Assembly: GCA_002731275.1 (NCBI GenBank)
Contig: PCBK01000175.1
Location: 1 to 46,758 of the forward strand
Direction: 5' to 3'
DNA from: Deltaproteobacteria bacterium
GTDB taxonomy: Bacteria > Myxococcota_C > UBA6777
DNA: 46,758 nucleotides
A program made the position numbers and the translations under genes. The notes under the pieces were generated by a model. The model had not been told where the DNA came from. It searched no databases and saw only the letters and a program-made list of their open reading frames with translations. Positions 36,795 through 46,665 of the stretch are shown piece by piece (the stretch's first letter is position 1; each line of letters opens with the position of its first letter).

Positions 36795-36911
36795 ATGGGT
36801 GATAGTCTGTCATGCATACACCCATTATGCTCGCATAGATATTGATGGCGTCATACCTCCGAGAAGGTGGGTGTGATCTTTTCTTGGTCTGAAAGAGAGG
36901 AGAAAACGAAG

Positions 36912-39900
36912 ATGAGTCAAAGGAGTCTATGGTACTTCATTGTAGGGTTGATGATGTTTGTACCATGTTCGGTAGATGCGAAGAGTGCGAGTCGTTGGAG
37001 AGCCTATAAGGGCTATGCGCCCAAGCAGAGCATACACGTTTACTCGCGGAAAGACGGCGAGGTCTACCGGGTCTGTCGGACGAGATACAAAGGGATGATG
37101 ATCCCGGGGCTCTCCGTGCGTGATCTTTGCTGCATTGGATTTGCAGGCAAGGAATACTGTCTTAGGGGCAACAAGCAGGCGTTGATGCCGAGCAGAGGTT
37201 GGGTGTACAGATGGATTCCCTCACGTACAGGTGTCAAGTTGCCTTCAGGTGCTTTGGTCGGAGGCAAAGAGGGCGCGAGCCGTATTTATATTTGCCGTGC
37301 ACCTGCGAAGGCAGGACATCTTCATGCAGGAAAGTTTCATACGAAGTTGAAGACCTGTTTTGTCGGCAGCTACGGACGTGAGTTACAACGTCGTCGTTTT
37401 GACATCCTTGTGGCCCAAAAACGCACAAAAGCTCTCCTTGGGACCAACGCAGCACTGCCTGTGCGTTTGCGTGTGGCTCCTGGCATGCTTGTGTCATATG
37501 CGACCAATCTTCTCAAAAAGAACCCCGAGTTTCGTCCTGTCCTCGACACCCTCTCCTCTCTTCCGGGATTGATGGGGACTCTCGTGAAGGATGCGAAGAT
37601 CATCTCAACTGCGTCGACTGTTGCAGGGTTACCTTCGTTGCAGTCGTTGACATCTCTTGGCTCTCTCAAGACGCTGGATCTCGATCAACTTTTGCGGGTG
37701 CGATTGCAGTCTGAGTCCGAGCTCAAAGCGCTACGTTCGAGACTGGTTGATTTGGGGAAAAAGAATGTGATTCAATTTGGTAAATTTGTCCTTGACGCCG
37801 GACGTAGGCTGATCAAGGAGATCGCGCCAGACTCCGCAAGCAGTTACAACAAACGCTCCTCCAAGTACCTTATCGACTACAAAAAGCTGAGCGAGGAGCA
37901 GAAGAAACTTTACAAACAACTCACCCACTCTGCTGTGATCCCTGTGAATGTGTTGGGGCGTCCCTATCAAGTACATTTGATAGGTAATTACTTGTATGAC
38001 GGACAATATCAGCTACAAAAGATCGATGGGATTCAGTCAAGCCCACCTTTTAACAAACTCGAAGAGGCTGCTGTTCTCGCGTATATTGGCTCCAAAAACT
38101 TGATCCGCAAAACGCTCGACGAGATGGTCTTGTATTACAAATCGATGGTCGATATCGTCGCGAGCTCTCGCTCACTGAACGCCAAGATCGAGGCCGTATG
38201 GAAGCTCTCCATGAAGCAGGCCAAAGAGGGCGCCATCACGCAAGCAGCAGAGAAGATGGCGGGCACTGTTGTTACCGGCATGATCTTGCCCGTTTTGCAC
38301 GATCAAACCAAGCGCAGTGCGTTGTTGTTCACGTTGCGCAAGGTCGTGGATGTTGGCTCCGAGAAGGTTGTCGAGAAGATCGTCAAGAAGATCTTACAAA
38401 AAGGCTCCAAGTTGAGCGCGCTCTCCAAGTGGCTTAAGTTCTCCGACAGCGCAAAGACCATCGCACGTGTCAACGCTCGTGCGAACTTTGTGACGGGGCT
38501 TTTGTTGGGGACATCGCTAGAGCTGACACTCATTCCTACACACGCAGCGCTCGATTGTCTGGCCTACTCAGGGAACGCCAAGAGAGGGTGTTTGAAGAGG
38601 CAGCTCACCTACTACACCAAAGACGCGATGTACAGCATCATCACGAATATCCTCCAGGCCTATATCGATCTCAAATGGATTCAACCAGCCTCTCTGAAGA
38701 TCGCGACATATGTAAGTGTAAAACTCGCGATGGTGACTTCTGCGCTTGGCATTCTTTCCTTTCCAGCGGTGAAGTTTATCGCTGAAAAGCTCCTCAACAT
38801 CCTCGTTACAGGGATGATTGAGGTTTCACGCTTTGCCTTCCATCCGCTGATCAACGAACTTGATAAACACAAGTTCATCGAAAAGGCTGCCGGACAAATC
38901 GTGCAACGACTCCCGGACAATCTGATGAAGTGTCAGCTTCCTTGTGCGCCGGATAACGCCTCACGCCAAAAGAACTTTGGTGACAAGCCACCGATCTCCA
39001 AGCGGCCTCCGCTCTTCTCCTCACCACGAACTTGGATGAAACGCTCGATGGCATCACAGCTCGGGAAGGCTCCTATTATTGGGGGGAAGGAAGGTCGCTC
39101 GATGGTGGGGATGTGCCGTGTGCGTTTGCCTGTGAACAACGAGTTGTTTCCAGGGATATTGTACGTCGATCGCACGGCCGGAAAGGATTACAACAAGTGC
39201 TGCTTCGTCTTTCATGGCAAGCGTGTATGTTCGGGGGGTGATTTTGAGATCTTTGTCAACACACGCGCTCGTTGGGTGAATGTGTATGATGAAAGACTCC
39301 CAGCCAACACTGCACTCGCGACGCTGTGGAAGAAGCACAAGCGAATGTTTTTTTGTCGCAAACGCTTCGGTCGAGATTGGCGTGTCGGGCGTCTCGATGA
39401 TTATGAACCACTTCGTTGCTTTATTCCTCACGGACGAGGTGAGCGCCCCTATCCATTACGTGGTGGCATCCAAGTCATGACAATTGCACGTGACTGGGTT
39501 CGTCCTGCGCTTTTACCGAAGGGACGTGAACTTTTCCCAACACATAAGGAGTTTGTTGGCGCTGGTAACACACACACTTCAGTGTTGGTGTACGAAGATT
39601 GGGGGTTTCGAGGGCGACGTGGTGTTCTACGTGGTTCTCATACAAATTTGGCGCGCCTCCATTGGGGCAACAGGATCTCCTGTATGCATCGCACTGTCCC
39701 CAAAGCCACACATACACCACAGGCTATTTTCTTTGATGGTAAAGGATATCGTGGTTCACGTATGCTCTTCTACGGCACTGATCGTGTCTGCACACGTGGC
39801 GGAAAGGTCCACTTCAACGATCGTGCTTCATCGTTGTTGGCGCTCGACGACTATGTCTGTCGTGCAGAGCACAAAGGGATGTTGATCCCAGGTAGTGTTC

Positions 39901-40877
39901 GATATCGTAAATGTGTCGTTCCCTTTGCAGGGAAGGCGTTTGCGAGTGAACGCTATGAGATGTTAGTCAAACAACCTGGGCATCGTTGGGTGCGTTTTAT
40001 GGGGCAGTTGCCTGCGAGTGCTGTACAGGCAGGTTTTGAAGGCAATCATTTGATGTATGTCTGCCGAGTGCGCGGTGACGCACGCTCTATCCATGCATAT
40101 CACATCGGAAAACTTCACACTACGCTTAAAAAATGCTTCTTTGTGCGTGGTCATCGAGAAGTACACACGAGCACATTTGAACTGTTGGTCGATGATCCCG
40201 AACGGAAACTTGGAGGTGTGAAGGTCCACGCGCGGGGGCGGCGAAAAGCCTCCTTTATGTCTCTCGCGGTTGCGCCTGATGGACGTCTTTGGACCATTCG
40301 AAATGGTCGTGTTCATCGCTCTCATGGAGGAATGTCTGTTGCACAAAGCTTGCCTTTACTCCGTGTGAGTGTCGGTGTCGACGGGACGACGATGGGGATT
40401 GGGGTCGGCAACAGCGTGATGAGATGGATCGGCGGCACACGTTGGCAACATTTCTCAGGTAAACTTCGCGAGATCGCGGTCTTACGTCGAAATAAAATGT
40501 GGGGAATCAATACGAAAGGGTATGTGGTTGTTTGGCAGAAGCACAAATGGGTGGCCACAAGACAACGTGCGGATCGGATCGCAGTCGGTCGTGATGGAAG
40601 TCTTTGGTGCCTTCGAGCCGGGCGTATCTATCACAAGAGAGGACGTCGTTGGCGTCTTGTGAAAGGACAACTCTCAGAACTCGCGGTCGTGCACAGTCGC
40701 TCCCTCTGGGGAATCAATCGCATGGGGCATCTCTATCACCGGAGCGCCGGACGATGGAAGCGTCTGCCTGGACGACTTGTCAGTCTCAGCGCGAACGCAA
40801 AAGGTCAAGTCTACGGTCTCTCCCATTTTGGTGGGTTGTATCGATGGAATGGACGCTCTTGGAAGCGGCTTCAATAG
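36912..40877 (+). CDS. Secreted multidomain protein: DUF3421 repeats, crystallin-like and tectonin domains
   Basis: A 1321-residue exported protein with a signal peptide (about residues 1-24, ending VDAKS). Two DUF3421 modules follow (VCRTRYKGMMIPG ... CIGFAGKEY; ICRAPAKAGHLHAGKF). Residues about 200-690 are a helical region with several hydrophobic stretches (AEKMAGTVVTGMILPV, ATYVSVKLAMVTSALGILSF), then come more DUF3421 modules (six in all), a beta/gamma-crystallin-like pair (VLVYEDWGFRGRRGVLRG; AIFFDGKGYRGSRMLF) and C-terminal tectonin repeats (DGRLWTIRNGRVHRS, SLWGINRMGHLYHRS). The make-up suggests a lectin-like, possibly membrane-active secreted protein. The ATG at 36912 follows AGGAG by 9 bases; an upstream in-frame start would spoil the signal peptide. 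Confidence 0.75.
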   Translation: MSQRSLWYFIVGLMMFVPCSVDAKSASRWRAYKGYAPKQSIHVYSRKDGEVYRVCRTRYKGMMIPGLSVRDLCCIGFAGKEYCLRGNKQALMPSRGWVYRWIPSRTGVKLPSGALVGGKEGASRIYICRAPAKAGHLHAGKFHTKLKTCFVGSYGRELQRRRFDILVAQKRTKALLGTNAALPVRLRVAPGMLVSYATNLLKKNPEFRPVLDTLSSLPGLMGTLVKDAKIISTASTVAGLPSLQSLTSLGSLKTLDLDQLLRVRLQSESELKALRSRLVDLGKKNVIQFGKFVLDAGRRLIKEIAPDSASSYNKRSSKYLIDYKKLSEEQKKLYKQLTHSAVIPVNVLGRPYQVHLIGNYLYDGQYQLQKIDGIQSSPPFNKLEEAAVLAYIGSKNLIRKTLDEMVLYYKSMVDIVASSRSLNAKIEAVWKLSMKQAKEGAITQAAEKMAGTVVTGMILPVLHDQTKRSALLFTLRKVVDVGSEKVVEKIVKKILQKGSKLSALSKWLKFSDSAKTIARVNARANFVTGLLLGTSLELTLIPTHAALDCLAYSGNAKRGCLKRQLTYYTKDAMYSIITNILQAYIDLKWIQPASLKIATYVSVKLAMVTSALGILSFPAVKFIAEKLLNILVTGMIEVSRFAFHPLINELDKHKFIEKAAGQIVQRLPDNLMKCQLPCAPDNASRQKNFGDKPPISKRPPLFSSPRTWMKRSMASQLGKAPIIGGKEGRSMVGMCRVRLPVNNELFPGILYVDRTAGKDYNKCCFVFHGKRVCSGGDFEIFVNTRARWVNVYDERLPANTALATLWKKHKRMFFCRKRFGRDWRVGRLDDYEPLRCFIPHGRGERPYPLRGGIQVMTIARDWVRPALLPKGRELFPTHKEFVGAGNTHTSVLVYEDWGFRGRRGVLRGSHTNLARLHWGNRISCMHRTVPKATHTPQAIFFDGKGYRGSRMLFYGTDRVCTRGGKVHFNDRASSLLALDDYVCRAEHKGMLIPGSVRYRKCVVPFAGKAFASERYEMLVKQPGHRWVRFMGQLPASAVQAGFEGNHLMYVCRVRGDARSIHAYHIGKLHTTLKKCFFVRGHREVHTSTFELLVDDPERKLGGVKVHARGRRKASFMSLAVAPDGRLWTIRNGRVHRSHGGMSVAQSLPLLRVSVGVDGTTMGIGVGNSVMRWIGGTRWQHFSGKLREIAVLRRNKMWGINTKGYVVVWQKHKWVATRQRADRIAVGRDGSLWCLRAGRIYHKRGRRWRLVKGQLSELAVVHSRSLWGINRMGHLYHRSAGRWKRLPGRLVSLSANAKGQVYGLSHFGGLYRWNGRSWKRLQ

Positions 40878-41190: not shown

Positions 41191-41374
41191 TGGAGTGTGC
41201 AAGGATGGAGGTAGCGAATACTGCGGTGATACGCCGCGGATGAACGTCCAGATGGAACACGACAAAGCAAAACGTCGAATCCACCGCCTTACTAGAGTGT
41301 GCTACGCACTTTACATGTAATAGCCGTGGCTTCCACGCTTTATGGAGGTAAGTAGCCCTCCTTGTCACATTCCA
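41191..41374 (+). ncRNA. Retron-like msr-msd RNA, unit 1
   Basis: Terminal inverted repeats TGGAGTGTGCAAGGA (41191-41205) and TCCTTGTCACATTCCA (41359-41374) pair over 15 bp with one G-U and one bulge, like retron a1/a2. Directly after a1 comes TGGAGGTAGC (41206-41215); the G in TAGC (41214) fits the priming guanosine of retrons. Stem-loop 1 is CTGCGGTGATACGCCGCGG (41221-41239); stem-loop 2 pairs TGGA (41253-41256) with TCCA (41280-41283), with an inner CGAC/GTCG. A variable core has hairpins AGTGTG-CTA-CGCACT and CGTGG-CTT-CCACG. TGGAGGTAAGTA (41343-41354) closes it before a2. The plus strand is chosen because the TAGC box and the RT are on it. No transcription evidence is available. Confidence 0.6.
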
Positions 41375-41399
41375 GACTTTCGATGAAGCTGATTTCCCC

Positions 41400-41566
41400 G
41401 AAGGGACAGGAGTGGAGGTAGCTTGTTCTGCGATGAAACGTCGTGGTTGGATCAAAACACATCCACCCCTTTGGGGCCTGTGATAAAGATAGCAGACCGG
41501 GTGAATTACAGTTCACACCAGGCGGCTCTCTTTCTGACTGGAGGTAAGTACTTTGCCTGTCCCTTC
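41400..41566 (+). ncRNA. Retron-like msr-msd RNA, unit 2
   Basis: The second copy begins 26 bases after unit 1. A perfect 11-bp inverted repeat, GAAGGGACAGG (41400-41410) / CCTGTCCCTTC (41556-41566), bounds it. TGGAGGTAGC follows at 41413-41422 (candidate priming G 41421). Stem-loop 1 is CTGCGATGAAACGTCGTGG (41428-41446), with base-pair-preserving changes against unit 1. Stem-loop 2 is TGGAT (41448-41452) / ATCCA (41461-41465). The core differs from unit 1: CCCC-TTT-GGGG, then a long stem GCCTG/CAGGC enclosing GTGAA/TTCAC. TGGAGGTAAGTA is at 41539-41550. It ends 17 bases before the stop of the opposite-strand HEAT gene. Shared boxes with a divergent core are what paired retron RNAs with different msd parts would show. 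Confidence 0.6.
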
Positions 41567-41582: not shown

Positions 41583-44012
41583 TCAACGATTGCGGATGTC
41601 TTTCGCAAACGCTCGATTCTTCTTCACAAAGATATCCCCAAAGGCTCGCAGCCGCGCTCTCTTCTCCTCTGATAACCTGCTCTCATCGAGGACTTCAAGA
41701 TTTTCTCGTAGCTGTTGTTGATCACGCGGCGCAGAGAAGCACCCCGATACGGCCTCTTGGGAGAGTGTGTAGCGATAGCAATCTTGTGGTGTCGGTGGTT
41801 GGAGGCTGTCCGCATAGGGCATCTGCAATAAGCGTCCATAAATCAAATTGTTGAACGTCAGCACACCACATCCTCTCGCCTGCGCGAGTGGAAAGACCTG
41901 CTCTTCAGCACCTCTATGTGCGATATTGTGACGGACCATCACAGGCTCCCAGCCGTCCTCTATGGCGTCACACGCGAGGGGTCTTTGGTGGGTCGAGAGA
42001 CCTGCATGTAAGAGTTTACCTTCTTCGCGCAAGCGGGTCAGTGTCCCCATCACCTCATCATCCAGACGACCTTTAGAGCGGACCCAGAACAAAAAGAACA
42101 GCGGAATGGTCTCCAATTTGAGGCTCGTGAGGGCCAGCTCAATGTCCCTGCGGATCGCCTTAGGGGTCGCCTCAAATGTCCCACAAACGACGACTGTCTG
42201 ACGTCTTTGTGCAGGTGTTAATTGCTGAAAAAACCGGCTCTGTGATCTGTAATCGGGCTCCCAAAAGTACAGATTGACACCTCGATCCCACGCATGACCA
42301 AAACCCTCCTCAGAGAGGCCGTAGTGGCCGGAGATCCCCATACAGCTAATCTTCAAACCTGTCGCTCCGAGGGGCCGGTGATTGGGATGCAAAGACCACG
42401 TCGAGAGGGTCAAAGGCGGCGTTTGTGGGAGAGCTTGAGTTGGTGCTGAGGGGGTTTCAAGATGAAGCGGACATACACTTGCCATTCTTGCAGCAGCTTC
42501 GAGGACCAGCCATGAGGTCTCTCGCTCGATATCCTGCCATAACCACACAGCGTGTGCAGGTGTCAGCGCTCGTATTCGGACTTTGTAGTCGGGATCTCGC
42601 TGCAGAGATGTGAGCAACTCAATGTCAGTATCAGTATGCTCGTGTTGCAAACAGAGACCTTGCGCAGCCAAGCCTCTCGCGTCTGCCTCCTTTGCGTTCC
42701 CGAGCGTCCTCCACAGTCCCTCTGGAAGGCTCTCTGTATGAGGGGGATGGCCTTGTTTTGCTTGGTGAATCCATAATTGTGCGATCTCTTTTTGCCAGAA
42801 AAGTGTCTTGCATTGTTCCGGTGAAAGTCTTTGTCGGAGTTCATCAAAGGTACATTGCTTGCGTAACTTTTGCCACACGATCATGTGTGTCTCTTCTGAC
42901 GTCGATGTTCGAAGAGTATCCCACCATTCTTCACTCGTACGTTGTGAATAGGGGATTGCATTGAGCGCTTTGCTTTCTAAAAGAGGGGTTGTGCAACTCC
43001 ATGAGAGGCACCGTTCGAGAAGGGACGGTTGTTCTTCGAAGAGCTCATCGGGCAGCAGGGCGAGTTGTTCGAGCAGCCAGCGATGTAGGTGAAGTGGGAG
43101 AGGTGTGGCTTCAAGCATCGAGAGGACGATATATTCGCGACGATCCAGGTTAAATGTGCGCCAAAAGTGTTCGATGTGTTCTTTGACAAAAGTCAGCCGT
43201 GGCTCTTTGAGGAGCGTGAGACAGGTGATGATATCCTGGTGACTTCCGTATTTTCGCAGGTATTGTGTGGCTTTGGTGCGCACCCGTTCGTCTTCGTGGA
43301 GAAGGAGCGTCGGGAAGTGACTGACTGCGTCTTTGGCCTGCTTTCGTGAGAGCCGCGTGAGCCGCTTGTGTAGGACGGGCGGGTCTTCATCCCACCACGG
43401 CTGTGAACGCAGAGAGGTCCAGCGAGGATCTTCCCAGTCGATCGCCGGTGGGCCTTGTGGGAGACACATATAATGTAGACAACCTGCTTGTTGGGGTGTG
43501 GGTGACAGGGTCTCTTCGAGTTGTTGTTTGAGCCGTCGAGCGACCGCTGTGTGAGTCGTTTGCCAGGTCTTCCAGCAGCGCAAGAGATCGCGGCGGACGC
43601 GCCAGTGGGGATCTGAGGTCGCGAAAAAAAACGTGTCTTCATAACCATCAGGTGTGTCTGCGAGGTAGGCGAGGCAGTCCTGTCGGATGGTCCAGGCGGG
43701 ATCATGTCGCAGGTGGTGTGCAAATAGAGCGTTATGTGTGTGCTCTGAAGCACTCGATAATTGGCGCAAGGCGTTCCTTCTCACTGCGCTGTGAGGTGAG
43801 CGAAGGGCGTCTATACAGCGCTGTTGCGCTACTGCGGAGAGAGGATGGGGCAGCTTTTGTATCGCGATGCTGACCAATCGTGCGTTTTTATGTGTGTCGA
43901 TGATCGCACATAAAGCATCATGATCGATAGTGTTTCCTGAGATGCTATGTGTGAGAAGTGTGTGGGGAGAAATATCTTTGTCGTACAAAAGGGACGTTAA
44001 ATGGAGGGACAT
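41583..44012 (-). CDS. HEAT-repeat protein fused to a degenerate aldo/keto reductase domain
   Basis: An 809-residue fusion. Residues 1 to about 520 are alpha-helical HEAT-type repeats (SPHSAVRRNALRQL, DPAWTIRQDCLAYLA, DPHWRVRRDLLRCW, DYKVRIRAL). Residues about 530-809 follow the aldo/keto reductase barrel (RPLGATGLKISCMGISG; IELALTSLKLETIPLFFLFWVRSKG; LREEGKLLHAGLSTHQ; FPLAQARGCGVLTFNNLIYGRLL). Catalytic positions look lost: the usual FDTAxxYG reads YFWEPDYR, the strand Lys is Gly (VVVCGTF) and the active-site His strand reads FFLFWVRS. It may be a binding or sensing domain rather than a reductase. AAGGAG lies 6 bases before the ATG. It lies between the two RNA units and the RT, divergent from the RT. 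Confidence 0.75.
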   Translation of the reverse strand: MSLHLTSLLYDKDISPHTLLTHSISGNTIDHDALCAIIDTHKNARLVSIAIQKLPHPLSAVAQQRCIDALRSPHSAVRRNALRQLSSASEHTHNALFAHHLRHDPAWTIRQDCLAYLADTPDGYEDTFFFATSDPHWRVRRDLLRCWKTWQTTHTAVARRLKQQLEETLSPTPQQAGCLHYMCLPQGPPAIDWEDPRWTSLRSQPWWDEDPPVLHKRLTRLSRKQAKDAVSHFPTLLLHEDERVRTKATQYLRKYGSHQDIITCLTLLKEPRLTFVKEHIEHFWRTFNLDRREYIVLSMLEATPLPLHLHRWLLEQLALLPDELFEEQPSLLERCLSWSCTTPLLESKALNAIPYSQRTSEEWWDTLRTSTSEETHMIVWQKLRKQCTFDELRQRLSPEQCKTLFWQKEIAQLWIHQAKQGHPPHTESLPEGLWRTLGNAKEADARGLAAQGLCLQHEHTDTDIELLTSLQRDPDYKVRIRALTPAHAVWLWQDIERETSWLVLEAAARMASVCPLHLETPSAPTQALPQTPPLTLSTWSLHPNHRPLGATGLKISCMGISGHYGLSEEGFGHAWDRGVNLYFWEPDYRSQSRFFQQLTPAQRRQTVVVCGTFEATPKAIRRDIELALTSLKLETIPLFFLFWVRSKGRLDDEVMGTLTRLREEGKLLHAGLSTHQRPLACDAIEDGWEPVMVRHNIAHRGAEEQVFPLAQARGCGVLTFNNLIYGRLLQMPYADSLQPPTPQDCYRYTLSQEAVSGCFSAPRDQQQLRENLEVLDESRLSEEKRARLRAFGDIFVKKNRAFAKDIRNR

Positions 44013-44156: not shown

Positions 44157-45722
44157 ATGCGTGAAGATACACAAAGCACCTCATCCGTAGTGCTTCATGA
44201 GGCGGAGCTGAAGAATAAGTTACCCATCGGGGCGACATTCGACTCTGCGCTGTTGGAGCAGATCTCAACCTTGGCGGATCAACTCCCGGACTCGATGAGC
44301 GAGCTGTACAAGGTACTCTCTGATATCGATATGTTGGTGGAGTTCGACGCAGCAAGAGTGTTTGTTGTGCGCCTCGTCCTGGCGCGTTTACGTGTGTTGA
44401 CACACGCAGAAGAGAAGCAACGTCTTGCTCTGCTCGATATGGCTCGCGACTATATGACGACGGATGAATGTGTCCCTGTATGTCGTCGGTTCGCGAAGGA
44501 CCCCTCCGCTCATGTGCGTGGTCGCGTCAAGACCCTCATCCGCACAAAGAAGCCAAAAGACGTCGCGCTCCCCCTCGAAGAAGGTGAGCGTTGGGACGCC
44601 TCTGGTTGGTCAAAGGGGATCAATGCCGACCCCGAACAAGAGACGAGCCCCCTGTTTAAGCATGAGAGAGGCAGTCGTATCCAGCGCAAGCACGGTGTCC
44701 CAGAGATCGAAACAGTCAAAGATCTTCGTACGCTGTTAAAGATCAAAAGTGAAAAGCAGCTTGGTTATTTACTGCTCAGTAACGAGCTTGAAGATGGGTC
44801 TGGACCCTACACGCTGTTTGAGATCCCCAAAAAAGATAAGTCCCCACGTCTGATCTGTGCACCGCGACAACCTTTAAAAGGTATTCAACGTCGTATTCTC
44901 GATCGAATCCTCTCTGGTGTCCCACCCCACGAGACAGCACATGGCTTCGTACCAGGGCGTTCCATTGTGACGAACGCTGCTGTCCATCAGAGCAAAGAGA
45001 TCGTGATCAAATTTGATCTGGAGAATTTCTTTCCATCGATGCACTACTACAGAGTGATGGGGTTGTTTGCGCAGCTTGGATACGATGTAGGAGAGGGTTT
45101 CTTCCAGAGTGATGATGAGAGCGAGGCGATCGCGCCAGTCCTCGCACGACTGACGACATACACATCGAATCCCAAGGAGTGGGGGAGAGGCTATCTACCA
45201 CAAGGTGCGCCCACATCTCCCTACATCGCCAACTTGATCTGCCGTGGTCTCGACGCCCGCTTGAGCGGCTTGGCGCGCAGTCTTGATGGTGATTACACGC
45301 GCTACGCCGATGACATGACCTTCTCTTTTGCAGAGCTGCCACGTACCAAAATTGGTCGCTTCCGTTGGTGGGTTGATCAGATCTGCCAACAGGAAGGCTT
45401 CGCTGTGAACCAAAAGAAATTTCGCGTTGTCCGTCGCTCTCAAAGGCAGATGGTGACCGGAATCGTCGTCAATGACACGCTACGTGTACCGCGAAAAGAG
45501 CGACGAAGATTCCGCGCGATCTTGCACAACTGCGAGCGCTATGGGTTGGAATCACAAGCTCGCGGTCGAAAAGATTTTCCCGCATATTTGCAGGGCTATG
45601 CGAGCTATATCAACATGGTCCATCCTGACGAAGGGCGCAAATTTATCGAACAGGTCGAGCATATCCTTCAGCTCGATCGCGAAGGCAAACTCCCTATCGA
45701 GAAAGACCCTGAGAATGGATGA
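44157..45722 (+). CDS. Retron-type reverse transcriptase with long helical N-terminus
   Basis: A 521-residue RT. Residues 1-185 are helical, with a HEAT-like stretch (CRRFAKDPSAHVRGRVKTLI), an extension of the kind found in long myxobacterial retron RTs. The RT core holds YTLFEIPKKDKSPRLICAP, HGFVPGRSIVTNAAVH (the NAxxH retron signature), KFDLENFFPSM, LPQGAPTSPYIANL, TRYADDMTFSF (catalytic YADD at residues 383-386) and QRQMVTGIVVN; the VTG triplet (433-435) is the retron hallmark that contacts the msr RNA. QGAPTSP excludes the diversity-generating class (usually SQ). It would make msDNA from the RNA units upstream. The next gene overlaps its stop by 8 bases. Confidence 0.9.
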   Translation: MREDTQSTSSVVLHEAELKNKLPIGATFDSALLEQISTLADQLPDSMSELYKVLSDIDMLVEFDAARVFVVRLVLARLRVLTHAEEKQRLALLDMARDYMTTDECVPVCRRFAKDPSAHVRGRVKTLIRTKKPKDVALPLEEGERWDASGWSKGINADPEQETSPLFKHERGSRIQRKHGVPEIETVKDLRTLLKIKSEKQLGYLLLSNELEDGSGPYTLFEIPKKDKSPRLICAPRQPLKGIQRRILDRILSGVPPHETAHGFVPGRSIVTNAAVHQSKEIVIKFDLENFFPSMHYYRVMGLFAQLGYDVGEGFFQSDDESEAIAPVLARLTTYTSNPKEWGRGYLPQGAPTSPYIANLICRGLDARLSGLARSLDGDYTRYADDMTFSFAELPRTKIGRFRWWVDQICQQEGFAVNQKKFRVVRRSQRQMVTGIVVNDTLRVPRKERRRFRAILHNCERYGLESQARGRKDFPAYLQGYASYINMVHPDEGRKFIEQVEHILQLDREGKLPIEKDPENG

Positions 45723-46665
45723 GATCCTGGCTCGTTTGCGTGCACTCGCTTACGAAACCCCTTCTTCCGAACGACAGCAAGCGCTCCTCTCTCTGCTTGC
45801 ACCGCTCTTCCTCCGCGACGACTTTCAGGTCGCGCTCGACTACATGCAAGCACACAACCTGCTGACGCCTCTACAGACGCAGCAATGTCTTGCGCAGTGG
45901 GAGGGCATTCAGGAGCACAAACCCTGGCACAATCCTGTCGATAACTCGGAGATGATCTGGATCCCTGCTGCGACCTTCCTCCAGGGAGATCCTGCGAAAC
46001 CCTTTCAGTGTGCTGGCTTCTCCATGGCCCGACACCCTGTGACAAACGCGCAGTTCGCACACTTTCTCGAAGAAACTGGTTACCAACCGTCTATCTATCA
46101 TCCCTCCAAGCCCTATTACCTGCTGCACTGGGGGCAACAAGAATGTCCAGAAGATCTGCTCACACATCCCATCGTGTATATCTCGTGGATCGACGCAGTT
46201 CATTACTGTGCTTGGGCTGGTTTGACATTGCCGACCAGTGATATGTGGGAGCACGCGGCGCGTGGAACGGATGGGCGTATCTACTCTTGGGGGAATCGAA
46301 CCCCTGAAGGTGAAGACTGTACCTGGGCCAATCTGCAGAGAGTGACTTGTCCAGTTGGTTCGTATCCTGGGACACGTACGGCGTATGGATGTCAGGACAT
46401 GATCGGCAATGTGATGGAGTTTTGTTTGGGTTATGAGCCATCAACACAAGGACTCGCCGTGGAGTTTCCTCTTCGCGATATTCCTGCGCCAAAAGATCCT
46501 GGACGTGATTATTTTCGCAAGAGGGTACCTGTGAGGGGGGGAGCTGTCTTTGGGCAACGCAAAGAGATGGCTGTGTTTGCAGAACGTTCTATGAGCAAGA
46601 TCCGCCGAGACCACCAGACGAGTTTCCGCCCAGCCTTTGTTCCTTATGCCATCACTGACAAGTGA
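45715..46665 (+). CDS. SUMF1/FGE-fold (C-type-lectin-like) protein coupled to the RT
   Basis: A 316-residue protein. Residues 1-75 are helical (LLSLLAPLFLRDDFQVALDYMQ, LLTPLQTQQCLAQWEG). Residues 80-316 follow the formylglycine-generating-enzyme/sulfatase-modifying fold: MIWIPAATFLQGD, ARHPVTNAQFAHFLEETGY, HPIVYISWIDAVHYCAWAGLTLP, WEHAARGTDGRIYSWGN, VGSYPGTRTAYGCQDMIGNVMEFC and VRGGAVFGQ. I could not match the paired active-site cysteines of true FGE, so a binding role is more likely than formylglycine formation. The ATG at 45715 overlaps the RT stop by 8 bases, so translation is coupled. It is probably the effector or accessory protein of the RT system. Confidence 0.8.
   Translation: MDEILARLRALAYETPSSERQQALLSLLAPLFLRDDFQVALDYMQAHNLLTPLQTQQCLAQWEGIQEHKPWHNPVDNSEMIWIPAATFLQGDPAKPFQCAGFSMARHPVTNAQFAHFLEETGYQPSIYHPSKPYYLLHWGQQECPEDLLTHPIVYISWIDAVHYCAWAGLTLPTSDMWEHAARGTDGRIYSWGNRTPEGEDCTWANLQRVTCPVGSYPGTRTAYGCQDMIGNVMEFCLGYEPSTQGLAVEFPLRDIPAPKDPGRDYFRKRVPVRGGAVFGQRKEMAVFAERSMSKIRRDHQTSFRPAFVPYAITDK

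Follow-up and report, generated by a model that had tools for sequence, protein, structure and literature searches.

Two retron RNA units and a reverse transcriptase on one contig

The window analyzed here is the whole stretch of 46,758 nucleotides of contig PCBK01000175.1 of a Deltaproteobacteria bacterium (assembly GCA_002731275.1), in which two tandem RNA units with the organization of retron RNAs lie on the forward strand (unit 1, 41191–41374; unit 2, 41400–41566; 25-nt spacer), followed 2.6 kb downstream, on the same strand and across an opposite gene, by a retron reverse transcriptase (RT). In each unit, a terminal repeat a1, the motif TGGAGGTAGC, a 19-nt stem-loop, a variable core, the box TGGAGGTAAGTA and the closing repeat a2 succeed one another in the same order. 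The segment from TGGAGGTAGC to stem-loop 1 is a direct repeat of 37 nt (41206/41413; 76% identity between units) and the TGGAGGTAAGTA box (41343/41539) agrees at 12 of 12 positions; the a1/a2 pairs of the two units show no sequence kinship, yet each still closes its own unit. Both units have the hallmarks of a retron RNA, i.e., an msr-msd RNA closed by a1 and a2, with a priming G in a TAGC near a1 and an msr stem-loop after it, TAGC/CAGC being the known retron priming site (PMC6868368). A preliminary description of this DNA had proposed the two tandem units, with their terminal inverted repeats and candidate priming G's at 41214 and 41421, and our analysis upholds both the coordinates and the elements as more than chance.

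In unit 1, a1 (TGGAGTGTGCAAGGA, 41191–41205) is complementary to a2 (41359–41374) with one bulge, and its duplex with this a2 (−26.4 kcal/mol) is more stable than with the a2 of unit 2 (−15.5 kcal/mol). Between the two repeats are found the TAGC priming site (41212–41215; candidate branch G41214), of which the AGC does not vary among the 14 core sequences of alignment A5, msr stem-loop 1 (CTGCGGTGATACGCCGCGG, 41221–41239), with an 8-bp stem that covaries among homologues, and a putative msd template (41284–41354, predicted limits) that ends with the TGGAGGTAAGTA box (41343–41354), common to unit 2 and to the units of genome G255. Similarly, a1 of unit 2 (GAAGGGACAGG, 41400–41410) pairs with its a2 (41556–41566) at 11 of 11 positions (−23.9 kcal/mol, vs. 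−19.2 kcal/mol with the a2 of unit 1) and encloses a TAGC site identified on the same basis (41419–41422; candidate branch G41421), stem-loop 1 (CTGCGATGAAACGTCGTGG, 41428–41446), which also covaries, and a putative msd template (41466–41550) forming a long imperfect hairpin up to the box (41539–41550). The second TGGA/TCCA stem-loop that had been announced for both units is clear in unit 2 (41448–41465) and weaker in unit 1 (41253–41283); it appears in the minimum free energy and centroid folds of both, and the unit 1 version lacks conservation in most relatives. An outer 18-nt inverted repeat (83%; 41152–41169/41375–41392) also brackets unit 1 outside a1/a2.

The RT (44157–45722, forward strand; 521 aa) matches RVT_1, carries the motifs NAAVH (region X, NAXXH), YADD and VTGI expected of a retron RT, and finds its best PADLOC model in RT_XIII (367 bits), followed by RT_other and RT_outgroup. 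RVT_1 begins at residue 223, which leaves a long N-terminal extension of the kind known from the retron RTs Mx162, Mx65, Sa163 and Ne144 of myxobacteria (PMC6868368). Close relatives come from metagenome-assembled genomes (MAGs) of Proteobacteria (54%), Planctomycetia (49%), and Myxococcales and another Planctomycetota (38–41%), and relatives at about 43% occur in 31 of 195 genomes from the G032 phylum, with an adjacent CAGC (Mx162-type) or TAGC unit in all but two. In the midpoint-rooted tree, 26 RTs including the Mx162-like ones form a group with 100/100 support, separate from nine other retron RTs, and the window RT clusters with those of G254, G255, G769 and G903 in a clade that is also supported at 100/100. 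No RT relative was found in the viral contigs searched, and the plasmids searched held distant retron RTs only. Further retron-like RTs (31–41% to the window RT) are encoded on contigs C95, C154, C35 and C83 of the source genome (G000), two of them adjacent on C35.

A covarying RNA family that accompanies the RT

Among 200 dinucleotide shuffles of each unit, none folded as stably as the native sequence (z = −4.2 for unit 1, −3.4 for unit 2). A covariance model for the msr core, built without the window sequence (R3), returned exactly two matches in the 46.8-kb window, at 41209–41247 (E = 1.2e-5) and 41416–41454 (E = 1.5e-5), whereas a similar model including both units (R1) found no third copy in the 10.75-Mb source genome. 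No Rfam family matched the window region or the five relatives scanned. Across 23 distinct homologous units, 97% of the cells of the core stem are paired and 17 are changed on both sides, a level reached by 0/500 shuffles and lost when the partner columns are slid; for instance, stem position 20–28 is A-U in 12 units and G-C in 11. Likewise, the a1/a2 duplexes of 15 representative units average −31.7 kcal/mol with their own partners and −18.8 kcal/mol with permuted ones, and 0/100,000 permutations did as well. Altogether, the AGC and stem-loop 1 are common to the window units and to the RNAs of the relatives. Since a lone core match of about 30 bits also occurs in two genomes without the RT, G805 and G217, the latter lacking a proper 3′ part as well, such a match was rejected as proof of a unit, and unit calls rest on the core, a1/a2 and the 3′ box together.

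The RNA and the RT co-occur. Among the 195 genomes mentioned above, 30 have both, one has the RT only (on a truncated contig), one has the RNA only and 163 have neither (Fisher p = 5e-33). In a sample of 392 Planctomycetota, core matches were limited to G255 and G257, both with this RT, and in the phylum of G256, units were detected in 20 of 377 genomes, 17 of which have a full-length RT of the clade, either adjoining a unit or elsewhere. Moreover, the units with GGAGGTAGC at the 5′ end (AAGGTAGC in G254) and GGAGGT--GT at the 3′ end are exactly those of the window, G254, G255, G769 and G903, i.e., the members of the window RT clade, so that the RNA subtype follows the RT clade. The a1-msr-msd-a2 plan and the link to the RT downstream, both advanced in the preliminary description along with a first stem-loop whose changes keep pairing, thus draw support from covariation, from the pairing of each a1 with its own a2 and from co-occurrence.

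Regarding expression, a search for TANNNT promoter elements anchored on a1 yielded no enrichment (9/50 vs. 7.0 expected), while anchoring on the AGC revealed a clear peak 31–40 nt upstream (13 of 21 occurrences; 42 units, dispersed ones included), which is consistent with many units having their own promoter.

Sets of several units in relatives

Outside the Myxococcaceae-like family, an RT often has several units, with two to five units found per genome. Tandem arrays comprise two units in the window, G210, G939, G1013, G986, G1015 and G807, and three in G257 and G258, the spacing being 206 bp in the pair of G986 (13.3-Mb genome); G255 and G882 combine a tandem pair with three and two single units, respectively, while G972 and G982 have four and two dispersed units. 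In G254, G255, G769, G882 and G982, the RT has no adjoining unit and the units are on other contigs. In the case of G982, the HEAT/AKR gene described below leads directly into the RT with no unit nearby (L182, 1334–4113), its two units lying on other contigs.

Two sets of comparisons bear on the conservation of individual units. First, in G939, G1013, G986 and G1015, the core identity across genomes is 95–100% for unit a and 89–97% for unit b, compared to 63–68% between a and b; to judge by these values, both units are therefore kept as separate entities. Second, two dispersed units are syntenic in G882 and G972 (90% and 84% identical, flanks 82–87%), and double changes preserve the pairing of their msd stems (GATGCAG/CTGCATC to GATGCAA/TTGCATC; GCAGACC/GGTCTGC to GTAGACC/GGTCTAC), another compensatory msd-stem change being visible in unit b of G939. 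Two exceptions are an extra unit of G160 with AGT at the priming AGC and the middle of the three tandem units of G258 (L082, 516–1006), which looks chimeric in that its a1 pairs more strongly with the a2 of the third unit than with its own, as might follow from recombination between units.

Two other features were noticed at these loci. In L148 (5900–6780), the second unit is separated from the RT by about 0.9 kb, a gap also seen in L146, L147 and L149; it contains an open reading frame whose repetitive C-terminus is rich in Lys, Glu and Gly and which by eye resembles Rpn/transposase-like proteins. Around 759–1000 of L059 (G257), a different retron RT has TTAGC and a GTGTGGTGTTACGCCACAC hairpin upstream, along with a long hairpin resembling an msd; this is probably the RNA of a further retron clade whose loop is similar.

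A conserved partner gene and other neighbours

The gene between the units and the RT (41583–44012, reverse strand; 809 aa) is convergent with the units and encodes HEAT repeats and an aldo-keto-reductase-like domain (Pfam HEAT_2 and Aldo_ket_red; hereafter HEAT/AKR). Its homologues adjoin the RNA and/or the RT in most relatives, and an unrelated insertion was rejected on this basis; in the phylum of G032, a HEAT/AKR gene lies within 1.5 kb of the retron locus in 23 of 29 loci. In relatives such as L011, L012 and L016, the HEAT/AKR gene, the RNA and the RT share one strand, with the RNA in the middle. The preliminary description was right about the layout, with an RT 2.6 kb away across an opposite gene, but this gene is no bystander: on the evidence of its neighbourhood, it is a conserved retron partner, inverted in the window. 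Its aldo-keto domain reads FFWEP-Y, V-AGT and LLFWVRS at the positions of the Asp, Lys and His of the catalytic tetrad of active aldo-keto reductases, and these expected residues are missing from the window protein and from 17 relatives. The domain is therefore probably not an active reductase, which suggests a pseudo-enzyme fused to HEAT repeats.

Downstream, an FGE/SUMF-like gene (45715–46665, forward strand; PF03781) overlaps the stop codon of the RT gene and is probably a member of the same operon. As its homologue directly follows the RT in G255, G769 and G903, the FGE-like protein may be a third component in the sub-clade of the window. Other aspects of the layout recur as well, G255 having a tandem unit pair convergent with the HEAT/AKR gene and an RT followed by FGE, G769 having divergent HEAT/AKR and RT genes and then FGE, and G903 having the RT followed by FGE. 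Judging from these gene orders, the window arrangement is therefore a conserved layout of the sub-clade and not the accident of a single genome. On the other side of the units, a protein of 1336 aa (36867–40877) that contains DM9 repeats and a tectonin domain shows no sign of retron membership.

Comparison with known retrons

In 29 genomes of one myxobacterial family, a single unit lies directly upstream of an RT that is 40–45% identical to the window RT. These retrons are attributed to Mx162/Sa163 because of their CAGC site, their N-terminal extension and the taxon (PMC6868368), not because of a match to the published sequences, and it is in this sense that we read the window RT clade as being of the Mx162 kind. 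Like Retron-Mxa1 (msDNA-Mx162) and Retron-Sau1 (Sa163), the window system has an RT with a long N-terminal extension and a CAGC/TAGC priming site; as in most of the Mx162-like loci, the HEAT/AKR gene stands beside the RNA and the RT, although the use of this neighbour as a mark of the type was defined in the present analysis and is absent from the literature searched. In contrast, the window does not place a single msr-msd immediately before the RT on its strand: it has two units and an RT that is 2.6 kb away with the partner gene inverted in between, as well as an FGE-like gene after the RT and GGAGGTAGC…GGAGGTAAGTA ends.

Retron type XIII of PADLOC provides the best RT model for both the window RT and the Mx162-like RTs, and its partner also has HEAT repeats, but the window partner includes an aldo-keto-reductase-like domain, and HEAT-ARM_XIII matches such partners marginally (E = 7e-4) or not at all. 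WHSWIM was found in none of the four proteins scanned, the contig ending soon after the FGE-like gene. The exchangeable RNAs of Vc95/Vp96 and Ec83/Ec78 indicate that an RT can use a second, related msr-msd; there, however, the second RNA comes from another species, whereas here both are in one genome (PMC6868368).

The closest precedent is Ne160 (Retron-Nex1) of Nannocystis exedens, for which the account of Lampson and Rice (1997), as cited in PMC6868368, mentions several msr-msd repeats with no RT within a kilobase and proposes retrotransposition. Owing to this report, tandem or RT-less msr-msd repeats are already known, and the suggestion of a possibly undescribed arrangement in the preliminary description was too strong. 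Compared to Ne160 as described there, the present units are distinct, stay at the same location from genome to genome while undergoing compensatory changes, and belong with a named RT clade. The literature searched on two-template retrons, type XIII RNAs and aldo-keto partners, which covered few subscription papers, yielded only the Ne160 remark; within these bounds, we did not find described either the recurrent, separately conserved, RT-subtype-matched and often RT-unlinked sets of units or the HEAT/AKR partner.

A proposed single RT for several templates

We interpret the window as a multi-template retron of the myxobacterial Mx162 kind, in which the single RT would serve both units and yield two multicopy single-stranded DNAs (msDNAs), and we assign this reading a probability of roughly three in four. 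In retrons, the folded a1/a2 helix presents the G of the TAGC, and the RT starts at its 2′-OH and copies the msd up to the msr. Here, transcription of each unit would give an msr-msd RNA that is closed by the a1/a2 helix of that unit, and the RT 2.6 kb downstream would recognize the common msr core (TAGC and stem-loop 1) and the common 3′ box, prime from the 2′-OH of G41214 or G41421 and copy the msd. Since the two templates have this msr and 3′ box in common, the RT should make two msDNAs per cell, with the same handle and different DNA parts. By extension, a single RT probably makes several different DNA molecules in the relatives with multiple templates. Several points weigh against our interpretation: the window units lack a TANNNT element, even if unit 1 shows TGTGAT at a similar place; the window pair itself was found in no close relative, separate conservation being seen for the pairs of other genomes; the genome has other retron RTs, albeit outside the window RT clade; and, the contigs being those of MAGs, “unlinked” means on another contig.

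The foremost alternative is that only one unit works and that the other is a recent or decaying duplicate, such as the retrocopies proposed for Ne160 in the account cited above. The common ends of the tandem units, the AGT unit of G160 and the chimeric-looking unit of G258 all fit this scenario, which we nevertheless deem unlikely, because both window units retain all their elements, the a1/a2 sequences pairing within each although unrelated between the two, because both units of a pair are separately conserved in four relatives, and because syntenic dispersed units retain their stems through compensatory change. It is more doubtful still that the two units form one composite RNA, with, e.g., unit 1 as a regulator or alternative template of unit 2: each unit folds alone with its own a1/a2, and units of the same kind stand alone in G255, G882, G972 and G982, which outweighs the 25-nt spacing on one strand, the possible common transcript and the outer inverted repeat around unit 1. 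An equally meagre probability, if not a smaller one, goes to the idea that another RT of the genome serves the units and that the neighbouring RT has a different template. The RTs on C95, C154 and C35 could be invoked, as could the distance of 2.6 kb across an opposite gene; yet the units co-occur with the window RT clade, to which these other RTs do not belong, the RNA subtype tracks that clade, and the 144 bp upstream of the window RT are too little for an msr-msd, with no further unit in the window (whose contig ends about 1 kb downstream). Finally, that the units are not retron RNAs at all, but the ends of a small mobile element, with their inverted repeats, or some other structured RNA, is very improbable despite the terminal repeats and the dispersed copies in some relatives, given the covariation, the invariant AGC, the fact that in most relatives the RNA has the HEAT/AKR gene on one side and the RT on the other, and its absence from genomes without the RT.

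Under the multi-template interpretation, the msDNAs would be held with the RT and probably the HEAT/AKR-like protein, by analogy with other retrons a candidate effector or sensor partner, and perhaps with the FGE-like protein, in a phage-sensing complex. According to PMC12548924, the retrons examined to date are anti-phage systems whose effector is restrained by the RT and the msDNA. Different msDNAs, with different msd parts on a common handle, might then be distinct baits or triggers of a single effector and let it answer to different phage triggers. For the clade as a whole, the case seems evenly balanced for a multi-bait sensor, i.e., a genome-wide repertoire of distinct templates, each with its own conserved msd, with a single RT reverse-transcribing them all in trans and a single partner protein reading them, in place of a cassette with one RNA.

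Retrons have been described and mined as one RT with one adjoining RNA. If several templates are separately conserved, some of them far from the RT, then surveys limited to RT-adjoining DNA miss templates. An RT that may naturally use several templates would also be of interest for making several single-stranded DNAs per cell. Beyond these practical aspects, loci in which handle, RT and partner are constant and the msd alone differs would offer a natural system for studying the role of the variable part of the msDNA, and Mx162, the first retron group found, would now be linked to a conserved HEAT/aldo-keto-reductase-like partner.
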